A stretch of 34,510 bases of DNA, from contig JAVHLK010000051.1 of assembly GCA_031082285.1 (NCBI GenBank), forward strand, positions 1 through 34,510, given 5' to 3'. The translations under genes and the position numbers were made by a program. This DNA is from Desulfomonilaceae bacterium. GTDB lineage: Bacteria > Desulfobacterota > Desulfomonilia > Desulfomonilales > Desulfomonilaceae. Numbering within the stretch: the first letter of the stretch is position 1; each line of letters opens with the position of its first letter. The notes below the pieces were generated by a model. The model did not search any database. It saw only the letters and a list, made by a program, of their open reading frames with translations, and was not told where the DNA came from. Below are positions 19,788-24,282 of this stretch, piece by piece.

Positions 19788-21365
19788 TCAGCTTCCCGAA
19801 ACCTCCGGTGCGGCCGGGACCGCGGAGGACGTCTCCGGATGGAGAGCACGATCTTCGGGACACCGCTCACGGTTGGAACGGTGGAAAAGCCTTACCACCG
19901 CGTCCGGCAAGACGCTCACGTCGTCCTTTCGCACGTGTTCGAGGGCACACCGTGCATGCCAGAGAAGCCTATTGATCGTAAAGAGAAACTTCGGCACCGT
20001 AAGATTCCCGGCGGATCTGTACAGTCCGAGCATCAACCTCGGCAACAGTTTGCTCTGAGAACATTGTATCAGGGTGAGGATGTAGTTCAAGAGGTTGTGG
20101 GAAAATTCCATGTAGGTGTCTTCAAAGCATTTTTTGTCCAGGCCGAGTTCTTCGGCTTTCCGATGGATCTCCGTTCCGGGGTAAACCCGTAATCCGTACA
20201 ATATGATGGAGAAGCGGCCTTTCAATCTCAAGAGAAACTCGATGGTCTCGAGCGCGTCTTTTTCCGGATCGAGGAACACGTTATCGGTAATGATATCATA
20301 GTAAGGGAACACCAGCCGATCGAATTTCTGAAGCATGTCGTTGCACTTTTCGTACTGGGCCGCATCGCCGGACCGCCGGTAAAAGCGAAGGGTCTCTTTG
20401 CACGCGGATTGAAACCCCAATCTGGTTCTTCTGAGACCGGCCGAAACGAGCAGTTCCAGCTTCCGTTCCGTGAGAAACGCAGGGATGATCCCCGTGGCAC
20501 TGAAGGGAAGATTGATGCGGCTCTTGAACTTCCGTGCGAATTCCTCGAGATGCTCTTCCTTCATGAAGATGAACCCGTCGTCTCGAAAATCGATGTATTC
20601 GATGTCGGCCGAGAGACCAAGTCCGTATTTTGCTTCCTCTATGATGTAATCCACGCTGTGCCGTCGAAAGCTCCCGTACCCTTTCCCTATTTTCGTGTAG
20701 TGATTGTTGATGCAGTAACTGCACGAAAAGGGGCAACCCAGGCTTGCAAACTGGTGGTACGTCCGAGAAAGGAATTTTCCGAGGATATCGTTATCCATCG
20801 GACGTATTGCGTTCCCCTGCAGCACCCAGTGATTGAGGGGACCGTAATCGGGGAACGGTAAGGTATCGATATCGTCGATCGCGGGGCGAATGGGATTGCG
20901 GATCACTCCATCGGCCGTCCTCGTCCAGAGGTTCTCAATGTCTTTTCGCAACGGTTCCAGGCACCACTCCAACAACGGCTGGAAGCCCTCCCCAACGATC
21001 ACGCGGTCCGCCAGTCGAATCGCATCTTCAGGGAAGACCGTAGGATGCACTCCGCCAAGAACGATCGGTATGCCCAATGGTTCCAGTTCGTGAATTAAGG
21101 CCCGTACTCTCGGCTTGTCCACGGTCATCATGGTTATGCCCACCGCGTCACAATCCGACACGATTGCACGCAGTGCTTTCCCCACCTCACTGCTGTAGGT
21201 TGCCGACGGCTTTTGCCTGAAAAAGAACTGCCACGTTTCCGTGTAACTCGGCAGAAATATCATCTTCGTTCGGATGCCGTTGGATTTCAGATATGCTGAA
21301 AGGGATCTCAGTCCGTGAGCCTCGAAACTATCGTACGGACTGATCAGTGCAATTGTTCGTATCAT
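19788..21365 (-). CDS. B12-binding-domain radical SAM protein
   Basis: A 525-residue enzyme. The N-terminal part (about 1-135) has the Rossmann-like pattern of a cobalamin-binding domain (IALISPYDSFEAHGLRSLSA, VGITMMTVDKP, IVLGGVHPTVFPEDA) but no clear DxHxxG motif, so base-off cobalamin binding is uncertain. The radical SAM domain has CPFSCSYC with Cys211, Cys215 and Cys218. A C-terminal extension of about 150 residues is unassigned. Relatives act in methylation, hopanoid, lipid or antibiotic modification; the substrate here is unknown. ATG 21365 follows GGAGG by 6 bases, so an upstream start at 21380 is rejected. It is divergent from hgcA, sharing a 355-base intergenic region. Confidence 0.85.
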   Translation of the reverse strand: MIRTIALISPYDSFEAHGLRSLSAYLKSNGIRTKMIFLPSYTETWQFFFRQKPSATYSSEVGKALRAIVSDCDAVGITMMTVDKPRVRALIHELEPLGIPIVLGGVHPTVFPEDAIRLADRVIVGEGFQPLLEWCLEPLRKDIENLWTRTADGVIRNPIRPAIDDIDTLPFPDYGPLNHWVLQGNAIRPMDNDILGKFLSRTYHQFASLGCPFSCSYCINNHYTKIGKGYGSFRRHSVDYIIEEAKYGLGLSADIEYIDFRDDGFIFMKEEHLEEFARKFKSRINLPFSATGIIPAFLTERKLELLVSAGLRRTRLGFQSACKETLRFYRRSGDAAQYEKCNDMLQKFDRLVFPYYDIITDNVFLDPEKDALETIEFLLRLKGRFSIILYGLRVYPGTEIHRKAEELGLDKKCFEDTYMEFSHNLLNYILTLIQCSQSKLLPRLMLGLYRSAGNLTVPKFLFTINRLLWHARCALEHVRKDDVSVLPDAVVRLFHRSNRERCPEDRALHPETSSAVPAAPEVSGS

Positions 21366-21607
21366 ACGTATCCTCCCCAAAAGGGTGCCGGTGCAATCAT
21401 ACCCGGCCGCGGGCCGACAACCGGGACTCGAAAATCAAAATGATGGATTTCAGATGGGGCGGACCATATCAAAGTGAAGACGGAAATCAAGACAAATCTC
21501 CACGTTGCTTATCATTGCTTACCTATCTCACGCGACTCACAGCGGCACTGCACGGTATTCTCAAAGGTTCCGGTCTTCATCCCGCACCGGAACCGCCGAC
21601 GAACCTC

Positions 21608-21635
21608 TTGACATTCGGAGTTCGCATGACATGAT
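21608..21635 (+). promoter_or_regulatory. Possible hgcAB promoter
   Basis: TTGACA (21608-21613) is followed after 16 bases by CATGAT (21630-21635), four of six matches to the -10 consensus. Transcription would start near 21642, within the 15-base palindrome listed next, leaving a leader of about 80 bases before ATG 21721. Confidence 0.45.
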
Positions 21636-21641
21636 GGAAAC

Positions 21642-21656
21642 ATGAGAAGTTCTCAT
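21642..21656. promoter_or_regulatory. 15-base palindrome, candidate operator of hgcA
   Basis: ATGAGAA-G-TTCTCAT is a perfect inverted repeat with a single central base. It overlaps the predicted transcription start of hgcA, a place where a repressor dimer would block initiation. ArsR-type regulators accompany hgcAB in some genomes, but none is encoded in this window. Confidence 0.4.
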
Positions 21657-21720
21657 ACGAATCCATGGTCCGCGTGAGAGCCATCTCCTTGATTTGAGAC
21701 TTTGAAACAAGGACGAACCG

Positions 21721-22905
21721 ATGATGAGTGAACAGAAGCACGCGGTCTCCGACCTTTCGGGACCTGCCGGGGAAGGGTGTTGTCCTCTCCCGGCCCCAAA
21801 ACCCGCCACGCCGAGCTGCTGAGCGCCGGCCTCCGAGGCTCGGGCGAGCCTCCCTCGACTCGATCAGCCGTTCATTGCGGGAACCGTTGACACGCCCGTG
21901 GGCAAAATCCCTCGAGCCGCGTCCGTGTTGAAGACTGCGGACTTGTGGGGAACCTTCAAAGCCCGGTGGGGAGTGGGGCGGATGTCCTACACCGTTGACC
22001 CGGGTCTGTACGCGGTCGGCCAACCGGACGCGGGTTCACCGGTACTCGTCACGGCAAACTACAAGATGAGCTTTGACCGGGTGCGACGTTCACTCGACGG
22101 TCGGAACGCTTGGCTCCTCGTTCTGGAGACTGATGGGATCAATGTATGGTGCGCGGCGGGCAAAGGGTCTTTCGGCACCAACGAGTTAGTCCTACGAATC
22201 GAGGGAGCCCGGTTGGAACAGATCGTGTCGCACCGTCGCGTCGTTGTCCCCCAATTGGGCGGACCGGGTGTCGCGGCACATGAAGTCAAGGCACGGTCCG
22301 GTTTCAGAGTGACGTTCGGTCCCGTTCGCTGCGAAGATCTGGGACGATTCATAGACGCGGGGTTTAAGGCCGCTCCGGAAATGCGTCGTAAGACCTTCGA
22401 CACCTGGGAGAGGTTGGTTCTCATTCCGGTCGAGCTGGTCGACGCTCTGAAGGTCGCAGCCGTCGCAGTGCCCCTTTTCTTCCTCCTTGGCGGATTAGGG
22501 GGGCCGGGGACCTTCTGGTCGAACGCACTCAACTACGGTCTGTTTGCGGTTGTGTGCTTAGTCGGTGCGATCGTGGCCGGGGCGGTGCTCACTCCGATAC
22601 TCTTGCCGTGGCTCCCGGGACGTGCTTTCTCTCTCAAAGGCCTGATCCCCGGAATCGCAATGGCAGTGGTACTCGTCGGTCTCAGGACTTCCGTGTGGGC
22701 GTCCCCGCCGGCGCCGCTGGAGATCCCGGCATGGCTCGTGCTGGTTCCGGCCCTCTCTACGTACCTTGCCATGAATTTCACCGGAGCATCCACCTTTACT
22801 TCGCTCTCCGGCGTGAAAAAGGAAATGCGAATCGCCGTACCCCTACAGATTCCGGCCGGTGTTGCAGGGGTCGCGCTGTGGATCGGGTCACGCTTTGCCT
22901 CATAA
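21721..22905 (+). CDS. hgcA: Mercury methylation corrinoid protein HgcA, in-frame TGA
   Basis: HgcA transfers a methyl group from its corrinoid cofactor to Hg(II). The hallmark cap-helix motif NVWCAAGKGSFGT is present (Cys144 counted from ATG 21721, the lower ligand of cobalt), as are VLVTANYKMSFDRVR, VVVPQLGGPGVAAHEV, FGPVRCEDL and about five membrane helices at the C terminus with TFTSLSGVKKEMR between them. ATG 21721 has AAGGA 7 bases upstream, but codon 34 is TGA (21820-21822), right after a Cys codon. The frame then stays open with no ATG, GTG, TTG or CTG until GTG 21898, which has no ribosome site. Downstream of the TGA the peptide LDQPFIAGTVDTPVGK looks like genuine protein. Either the TGA encodes selenocysteine, or it is a nonsense mutation or base error, or translation starts at GTG 21898 (335 residues). 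hgcB starts 12 bases after the stop. Confidence 0.93.
21818..21868 (+). promoter_or_regulatory. SECIS-like hairpin at the hgcA TGA codon
   Basis: GAGGCTC (21835-21841) and GAGCCTC (21846-21852) form a perfect 7-bp stem with loop GGGC. Counting the T of TGA as 1, the loop begins at position 23, where the E. coli fdhF SECIS places its critical loop G. An outer 5-bp pair, GCTGA (21818-21822, including the TGA) with TCAGC (21864-21868), closes the structure. Bacterial SECIS elements need a G in the first two loop bases and a loop 16-37 bases from the UGA; both hold. The bulged U17 and loop U24 of fdhF are missing. Confidence 0.4.
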
Positions 22906-22917
22906 GGAGCATGAGTC

Positions 22918-23253
22918 ATGAGGTTCCCCGTTTATCTTCACAATGTTGCAACCTTGGCGCTCGATGAGGACAAATGTACCGGTTGCGGCGCCTGCCTGGA
23001 TGTATGCCCCCACGCGGTGCTTGTACGGCACAACGGCCGAGTGCGTATCGACGACCGCGATGCGTGCATGGAATGCGGGGCATGCGCAACGAATTGCCCC
23101 GTCCAGGCCGTCACCGTCCAGAGCGGAGTGGGATGTGCAATGGCGGTAATCAACACTGCGCTGGGGAGGAGTTCCTCTTCATGCTGCTGTGTGATTGAAA
23201 CCTCCGAGCAGAAAGCGGCGAATTCATCCGGGTCCACGGCAACGCCCCGGTGA
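22918..23253 (+). CDS. hgcB: Mercury methylation ferredoxin HgcB
   Basis: A 111-residue ferredoxin that returns electrons to the HgcA corrinoid and probably handles Hg(II). It has two [4Fe-4S] motifs: Cys20-23-26-30 (CTGCGACLDVCP) and Cys50-53-56-60 with the HgcB signature CMECGAC. Cys73 in SGVGCA is the extra conserved Cys of HgcB. Near the C terminus are three consecutive Cys (89-91, SSSSCCCVIE), where HgcB normally has a pair, followed by an unusual 20-residue Ser/Ala-rich tail. ATG 22918 has GGAG 8 bases upstream; an ATG at 22911 is in another frame. It follows hgcA by 12 bases and precedes the metallo-beta-lactamase-fold gene by 30. Confidence 0.95.
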   Translation: MRFPVYLHNVATLALDEDKCTGCGACLDVCPHAVLVRHNGRVRIDDRDACMECGACATNCPVQAVTVQSGVGCAMAVINTALGRSSSSCCCVIETSEQKAANSSGSTATPR

Positions 23254-23283: not shown

Positions 23284-24282
23284 ATGACCACGATTCACCC
23301 CATCAAGGTTCCTCTTCCTTTTCCGGTCAAATGGATCAATTGCTTTTACGTACGGGATTCGGTTCCCACACTTATCGATACCGGCATCCATTCGGATGAC
23401 TGCCTTCAGGCAGTGCGATCCGCGATCGCGGCGACAGGCGACGCACTGGAAGATCTTCGAAGAGTGATCGTAACTCACGGTCACGTCGATCATATGGGCC
23501 TGGCCGGGGAAATAGCGCGCATCTGCGGTGCGGAAGTCTTCATTCACGCCTGGGACGAAAGCAAGACAACGGTCGTCGATCCCGAACACGTGTCCGAGAC
23601 TCGGAGGAAGTATGCGCTGTTCTTGCAGGAAGCGGGGGTACCGGATGCCACGGCCTCGGAACTGGTCGACTTGGTGGTCACGCGCCTCGAGAGCCTCTGC
23701 CGTCCCATGTCGCACGTCACCGCGCTTCATGGTGACGAGGTTTTCCGGTTCGACGACCTCGACCTGACAGTGGTGCACGCCCCGGGGCACACGCCCGGAT
23801 CGGTCTGTCTTTTCGATGCGCGGCGCGGGCATCTCTATTCGGGAGACAGCCTCATAGAAGAGTTGACGTTCAGCCCGGCAACGGATACCGACGGGACGGA
23901 CAACGGACGCGTGTACCAAAGCCTGACCGAGTGCAGGCACACATGGAACCGCTTGTCCGAGCTGAATGTGCGTAAGGTCTTTCCCGGTCACGGTCGTGCC
24001 TATTCGAACCTGCGAGAAAGGATCCAACACCTTCGGGCCTTCCACGAGCACCGCAGGTGCGAGATCCTGAGCGTCCTGGAGACGCGGCGATCCGCGCAAG
24101 GTTCTCAATCGGGGTTCACCAGACTTGAGTTGGCACGCCGGCTGTTTCCCACCATGAAGGAGATAGAGGTTTATTACCGAATAACAGCGGTGAGGGCGCA
24201 CCTGGAAGTACTGGAGGCCGAGGGATTGGTTTCGTCGACACCGGGAGATTCCGGCCTCGTGTACAGCCTGTGCCGGGGCTGA
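23284..24282 (+). CDS. Metallo-beta-lactamase-fold hydrolase with C-terminal helical domain
   Basis: A 332-residue soluble protein with the MBL metal motif THGHVDH (about 62-68, HxHxDH), the second His site in HAPGHTPGSVCLF, the Asp in YSGDSL and the final His in FPGHG, so a two-metal site is complete. After about residue 250 comes an extra domain (FTRLELARRLFPTMKEIEVY, then ITAVRAHLEVLEAEGLVS) that reads like the winged-helix C-terminal domain of LACTB2-like proteins. These hydrolyse thioesters, RNA or other substrates; none can be chosen here. It starts 30 bases after hgcB on the same strand and so may be part of the hgcAB transcript. The Shine-Dalgarno site is poor. Confidence 0.85.
   Translation: MTTIHPIKVPLPFPVKWINCFYVRDSVPTLIDTGIHSDDCLQAVRSAIAATGDALEDLRRVIVTHGHVDHMGLAGEIARICGAEVFIHAWDESKTTVVDPEHVSETRRKYALFLQEAGVPDATASELVDLVVTRLESLCRPMSHVTALHGDEVFRFDDLDLTVVHAPGHTPGSVCLFDARRGHLYSGDSLIEELTFSPATDTDGTDNGRVYQSLTECRHTWNRLSELNVRKVFPGHGRAYSNLRERIQHLRAFHEHRRCEILSVLETRRSAQGSQSGFTRLELARRLFPTMKEIEVYYRITAVRAHLEVLEAEGLVSSTPGDSGLVYSLCRG

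Follow-up and report, generated by a model that had tools for sequence, protein, structure and literature searches.

The hgcA gene of the window (the whole 34,510-nucleotide stretch of DNA from a Desulfomonilaceae bacterium that was analysed here) can be predicted with high confidence to encode a selenoprotein, selenocysteine (Sec) at the in-frame UGA at 21820-21822 being the best explanation of the sequence. HgcA is a corrinoid protein, and HgcAB makes toxic methylmercury. In the proposed reading, ribosomes would start at ATG 21721 (or 21724), and SelB together with Sec-tRNA(UCA), guided by a hairpin at 21835-21852, would insert Sec at the UGA; the product would be a 394-residue HgcA with a flexible N-terminal tail carrying Cys33-Sec34 and Cys20-Cys21. 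The features concerned, with the basis of each assignment in brackets, are:

21709-21713, + strand: AAGGA, Shine-Dalgarno-like, 7 nt 5' of ATG 21721 (sequence)
21721-22905, + strand: hgcA, predicted Sec form, 394 codons plus stop (NF040863, PF03599, structure prediction)
21778-21783, + strand: Cys20-Cys21, a further vicinal pair within the tail (sequence)
21817-21822, + strand: Cys33 (TGC) and the putative Sec codon UGA (codon 34), forming a CU pair (homologue alignment, with TGA or CC)
21835-21852, + strand: SECIS-type hairpin GAGGCUC-GGGC-GAGCCUC, 7 bp (folding and comparison)
21874-21894, + strand: codons of residues 52-58, first beta-strand of the corrinoid domain (pLDDT about 97; conserved in relatives)
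22150-22152, + strand: Cys144 of NVWC, the cap-helix cobalt ligand, equivalent to ND132 Cys93 (alignment; role from PMC7305189)
22918-23253, + strand: hgcB, a dicluster ferredoxin in Cys form (GVGC) with a tail containing CCC (NF040864, 123 bits, E = 3.4e-36; translation)

Reading frame and predicted structure

Translated from ATG 21721, the frame reads MMSEQKHAVSDLSGPAGEGCCPLPAPKPATPSC-TGA-APASEARASLPRLDQPFIAGTVDTP-V (the V being GTG 21898) and onward, with a single in-frame TGA (21820-21822) directly after Ser-Cys (Cys33) and no further interruption up to 22905; the open reading frame called under table 11 covers GTG 21898-22905 alone (335 aa). In profile searches the product matched NF040863 (446.1 bits against a curated cut-off of 275, E = 6.7e-134) as well as PF03599, and the cap-helix motif N(V/I/W)WC is present as NVWC at residues 141-144, invariant across the 33 rows of the alignment. 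AlphaFold, run on this 33-row alignment (mean pLDDT 86.7), predicted residues 1-40 to be disordered, with a tail extending to about residue 45, and placed after the first strand a Rossmann-like corrinoid domain followed by five long C-terminal helices (228-393), which match the C-terminal transmembrane domain of five helices expected of HgcA.

That the TGA is a true stop, closing a 33-codon upstream open reading frame with HgcA then beginning at GTG 21898, appears very improbable, even though it agrees with the table 11 call and the NCBIfam model NF040863 covers the long form only from residue 63 on. GTG 21898 is residue 60 and the only alternative start, so initiation there would delete the confidently predicted strand at 52-58 (pLDDT about 97) together with the conserved LDQPF..G...TP stretch; this GTG also lacks a Shine-Dalgarno site, and a true stop leaves both the phylum-wide TGA or Cys at the same site and the SECIS unexplained. 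The earlier note had described much of this frame from the letters of the window, and its description held: the ATG with its AAGGA site, the Cys-TGA and the continuation into HgcA were confirmed from the sequence and the NF040863 match, and the vicinal Cys-Cys at codons 20-21 of the N-terminal extension from the translation. The sequence likewise bore out the absence of any in-frame ATG, GTG, TTG or CTG between the TGA and GTG 21898 and of a Shine-Dalgarno site at the latter. The stretch LDQPFIAGTVDTP, which had been taken for genuine protein, is supported as such by the predicted strand 52-58 and by conservation in relatives.

Homologues, hairpin and selenocysteine machinery

Homologues were obtained from a scan of GTDB genomes (56 loci) and a search within the window's own order, which gave matches in 14 of 18 genomes; an in-frame TGA was present in 11 of these 14, counting the source genome of the window. 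After removal of two duplicates and two fragments without the NVWC motif, 65 non-redundant HgcA homologues were compared. The distance from TGA to NVWC was 106 (n = 2), 107 (n = 33) or 108 (n = 5) codons, with the nearest other TGA at 122, a clustering upstream of NVWC far beyond chance. One TGA at 106 codons (locus L051) was rejected as a Sec codon, as it is a fortuitous stop ahead of a later ATG; with this locus left out, 39 of the 65 homologues have a TGA at 106-108 codons before NVWC, the motif being CU in 34, CGAGU in three and UC in two. A Cys-Cys pair occupies the Sec site in 5 of the 65, with flanks that otherwise match (e.g., PPCCGPPTSTGGG versus PPCUGPPTSAGGG), a sixth Cys homologue (L086) has its CC slightly displaced, and in 20 both the CU and an aligned CC are absent. 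When TGA is translated as Cys, the Sec column is invariant in 33 of 33 alignment rows, some of these rows being without a true CC and fitted by the aligner. At least one extra upstream Cys occurs in 31 of the 39 Sec homologues, and a CC at the position of Cys20-Cys21 in 4 of the 39. Upstream of the TGA, counts of synonymous and non-synonymous changes are dominated by the latter, and the tail is evolving fast, so that only the Cys positions and motifs speak for conservation in this stretch.

Two kinds of variant were observed among the loci. In L087 and L092, both from the window genome's family, the pair is reversed to Sec-Cys (STUC and SGUC), and in L034, L037 and L096 the adjacent CU is replaced by CGAGU (C-x-x-x-Sec), with the SECIS hairpin kept at a spacing of 22.

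A bacterial SECIS-type hairpin is, by folding and comparison, conserved in the TGA homologues and missing or broken in the Cys homologues. In the window it starts 12 nt past the TGA, with the apical loop 19 nt past the UGA and a G within the first two loop positions. Measured against the bSECIS criteria of PMC13188914 (loop of 3-9 nt, stem of 4-16 bp, G in the first two loop positions, 16-37 nt after the UGA, minimum free energy ≤ −7.5 kcal/mol), the window hairpin lies within every limit (7 bp, loop GGGC, spacing 19, −12.7 kcal/mol). For the window gene alone, 6 of 100 synonymous shuffles gave a hairpin as good, and the stability of the whole 59-nt hairpin region was not unusual against shuffles (z = 0.36), a value that is uninformative in such GC-rich DNA; position-specific and comparative tests were used instead. 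Across the 39 TGA homologues, the best hairpin under the rules averaged −11.0 kcal/mol, versus −5.6 kcal/mol for synonymous-codon shuffles; it reached −7.5 kcal/mol or lower in 36 of 39 and lay at or beyond the best 5% of its own shuffles in 22 of 39, Geobacter-type hairpins being less distinctive because the SAGGG codons favor a hairpin anyway. In the DQPF group, the seven helix pairs were 82% formed, versus 26-43% with one arm slid, and compensatory changes on both sides were found at several pairs (e.g., GC/AT and TA/CG). The Geobacter-type group has the hairpin in a register of its own, with 88% of pairs formed. A TGA placed one codon farther upstream mostly goes with a spacing of 22, and a TGA placed one codon downstream with a spacing of 16, suggesting that the place of the hairpin is fixed relative to the protein. 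None of the six Cys homologues has a hairpin in the 16-22 nt zone, and three of the six are without any under the rules.

The source genome (a 314-contig draft, 99.9% complete, 4.2% contamination) carries the machinery that Sec insertion would use: selA (contig C247, 598 bits), selB (contig C286, 394 bits), a tRNA-Sec with anticodon TCA (contig C166) and selD (L080, contig C177, 29715-30635, 366 bits). The selD gene has one in-frame TGA of its own, consistent with a Sec-containing SelD, which suggests that the genome uses Sec elsewhere too. Among 30 genomes checked for selA, it was present in 14 of 14 with a TGA-containing hgcA, and all five genomes without selA have an hgcA without TGA; this concordance is nominally significant only (one-sided Fisher P = 0.03, uncorrected for kinship). 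Since four Cys-form HgcA come from selA-bearing genomes, loss of Sec alone does not account for the Cys form.

Two further explanations of the TGA are already contradicted by these data, and both are extremely improbable. In a draft of 314 contigs, the TGA might be put down to faulty sequencing or assembly, or hgcA might be decayed, but many genomes assembled independently share this TGA, among them those of isolates or cultures (Geobacter sp. AOG1, Geomonas sp. Red32, Oryzomonas japonica and NaphS2), and the remaining hgcA reading frame is intact and followed by hgcB. Genome-wide reassignment of TGA, or its readthrough as another residue such as Trp, found no evidence in its favor among the genes searched in the genome: the others searched (e.g., selA, selB and both long CdhD matches) have no internal TGA, the best match that does is selD, a known selenoprotein, and the residue of relatives at the site is Cys rather than Trp. 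The Sec reading put forward in the earlier note is supported on each side on which it was examined, namely by TGA or Cys at the aligned position (39 TGA and 5 CC among the 65 homologues), by the presence of all four of selA, selB, selC and selD in the genome, by the conserved and structured protein between the TGA and GTG 21898, and by the SECIS-type hairpin.

Distribution and known forms of HgcA

In an even draw of the phylum, HgcA was found in 56 of 198 genomes, and 20 of these 56 genes (counted from matches, the window's own included) have exactly one in-frame TGA; those 20 matches all begin before query residue 34. On these genomic comparisons, Sec-HgcA is almost certainly genuine and occurs widely across the phylum. 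On the HgcA tree, the Sec label requires at least 9 changes (mean of 20.5 when shuffled), and the strongly supported branches force at least 4, which suggests that HgcA has switched repeatedly between Sec, Cys and absence of the pair.

A 2026 review (PMC13188914) lists HgcA in its Table 1 (NF040863, CU, 1 Sec), along with an HgcB with GVGU, in both cases citing Haft and Gwadz 2023 (J Bacteriol 205:e00259-22), which by the review's account predicted Sec-HgcA; PMC11588087 likewise cites Haft and Gwadz 2023 for selenoprotein HgcA/HgcB. For HgcA the review further points to a marine survey of 2008 (PMC2398784), in the text of which the names searched were absent. As Sec-HgcA has already been computationally predicted in print, the window gene is a further member and not the first of its kind. 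What is added here is the conservation of the SECIS, the UC and CGAGU variants, the repeated changes among the Sec, Cys and absent forms, and the frequency of 20 in 56.

The window gene resembles the Sec-form HgcA of NF040863 and PMC13188914 in family, in the CU motif within an N-terminal extension, in UGA as Sec and in the adjacent hgcB, but differs in having a further Cys-Cys pair 12 codons upstream. With HgcA of Pseudodesulfovibrio mercurii ND132 (PMC11588087, PMC7305189), an active enzyme that methylates Hg with SAM as methyl donor (PMC11588087), it shares the corrinoid domain with the NVWC cap Cys and the five-helix membrane domain, whereas the ND132 protein, judged by residue numbering (cap Cys 93 versus 144), is essentially tail-less and has no CU pair. 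The selenoprotein form of HgcB (NF040864, GVGU) is the partner protein of the same two-gene unit, but HgcB has Cys (GVGC) in the window and in the homologues where it was located.

Should Sec be present in a large share of environmental HgcA, the tail is being truncated by gene callers, and the biochemistry obtained so far with the ND132 enzyme may not show the Sec form. The question is also raised of whether selenium availability changes mercury methylation via HgcA itself.

Putative role of the Cys-Sec tail and neighboring loci

Selenium is a strong ligand of mercury. The Sec tail of HgcA probably serves in capture and hand-over of Hg(II). With its thiolate and selenolate, the mobile tail would work as a hand: it would pick up Hg(II) or methyl-Hg and, jointly with the Cys-rich HgcB tail, deliver it to the methyl-corrinoid center at Cys144 or fetch it from there. 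By analogy with the HgcB tail, its affinity in capturing Hg(II) or clearing the product would exceed that of a dithiol. HgcB has a similar disordered Cys-pair tail that is needed for activity (a double mutant loses 95%) and has been proposed to move Hg(II) or methyl-Hg (PMC7305189). The terminal Cys-pair tails of MerA, HgcB and SaoC (Cys-Cys-COOH or CU) are alike in their vicinal thiol/thiol-selenol, mobile chain end and Hg or organometal chemistry; the HgcA pair is unlike them in being N-terminal and inside a recoded frame, and the likeness is an analogy only. As ND132 HgcA is active yet seemingly tail-less, the tail would be an accessory rather than part of the core reaction, and the pair would not be essential in general.

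Alternatively, the Cys-Sec tail may serve redox chemistry rather than mercury: it could reduce the corrinoid or the cap Cys, or act on either as a redox switch. Many selenoproteins use CU and UC pairs as redox motifs, and HgcA depends on reduced cobalt of low potential (PMC11588087). The tail, however, is predicted to be disordered and lies at one end of the chain, as do the Hg-binding Cys tails of HgcB and MerA (PMC7305189), and the CU, UC and CGAGU variants are more in keeping with a loose chelate than with a fixed redox site. Neither of these points is decisive, and a redox role is the main rival reading, though less likely than not. Returning to mercury capture, a more specific version is tentatively offered as quite possible: the tail would be a dedicated selenolate arm capturing Hg(II) with the HgcB Cys tail, selenium supply would set methylmercury output in many Thermodesulfobacteriota, and the loose geometry (CU, UC, CGAGU) and repeated Sec/Cys/absent changes would reflect selection on metal affinity and not on a fixed fold.

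Several observations concern the surroundings of hgcA and other loci. A Sec at the end of the window HgcB (TGA 23251-23253, then TGC) was considered and rejected, no hairpin being seen downstream by eye. The ATG of an MBL-fold hydrolase gene (23284-24282) lies in frame 10 codons past this hgcB stop TGA, which was taken as an ordinary stop. In L086, where HgcA is of the Cys form, HgcB ends SSC-TGA-TAG, versus Cys-Cys before the stop in close relatives; a C-terminal Sec was considered here too, but no SECIS was found after the TGA, which makes an ordinary stop more likely. Ahead of hgcA, a perfect palindrome (ATGAGAA-G-TTCTCAT, 21642-21656) just after a sigma-70-like promoter (21608-21635) is a possible operator, and was not conserved in the relatives compared. 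A divergent gene for a B12-binding radical SAM protein (19788-21380, − strand) adjoins hgcA. On contig C88 of the genome, L003 (1465-2094, − strand) encodes a corrinoid protein of 209 aa that has a CFeSP-like Fe-S motif and whose C-terminal part is PF03599, and its neighbors are look-alikes of a UroD/MtbA-type corrinoid methyltransferase (by eye) and a sigma-54 regulator; this locus is a separate methyl-transfer unit and not HgcA.
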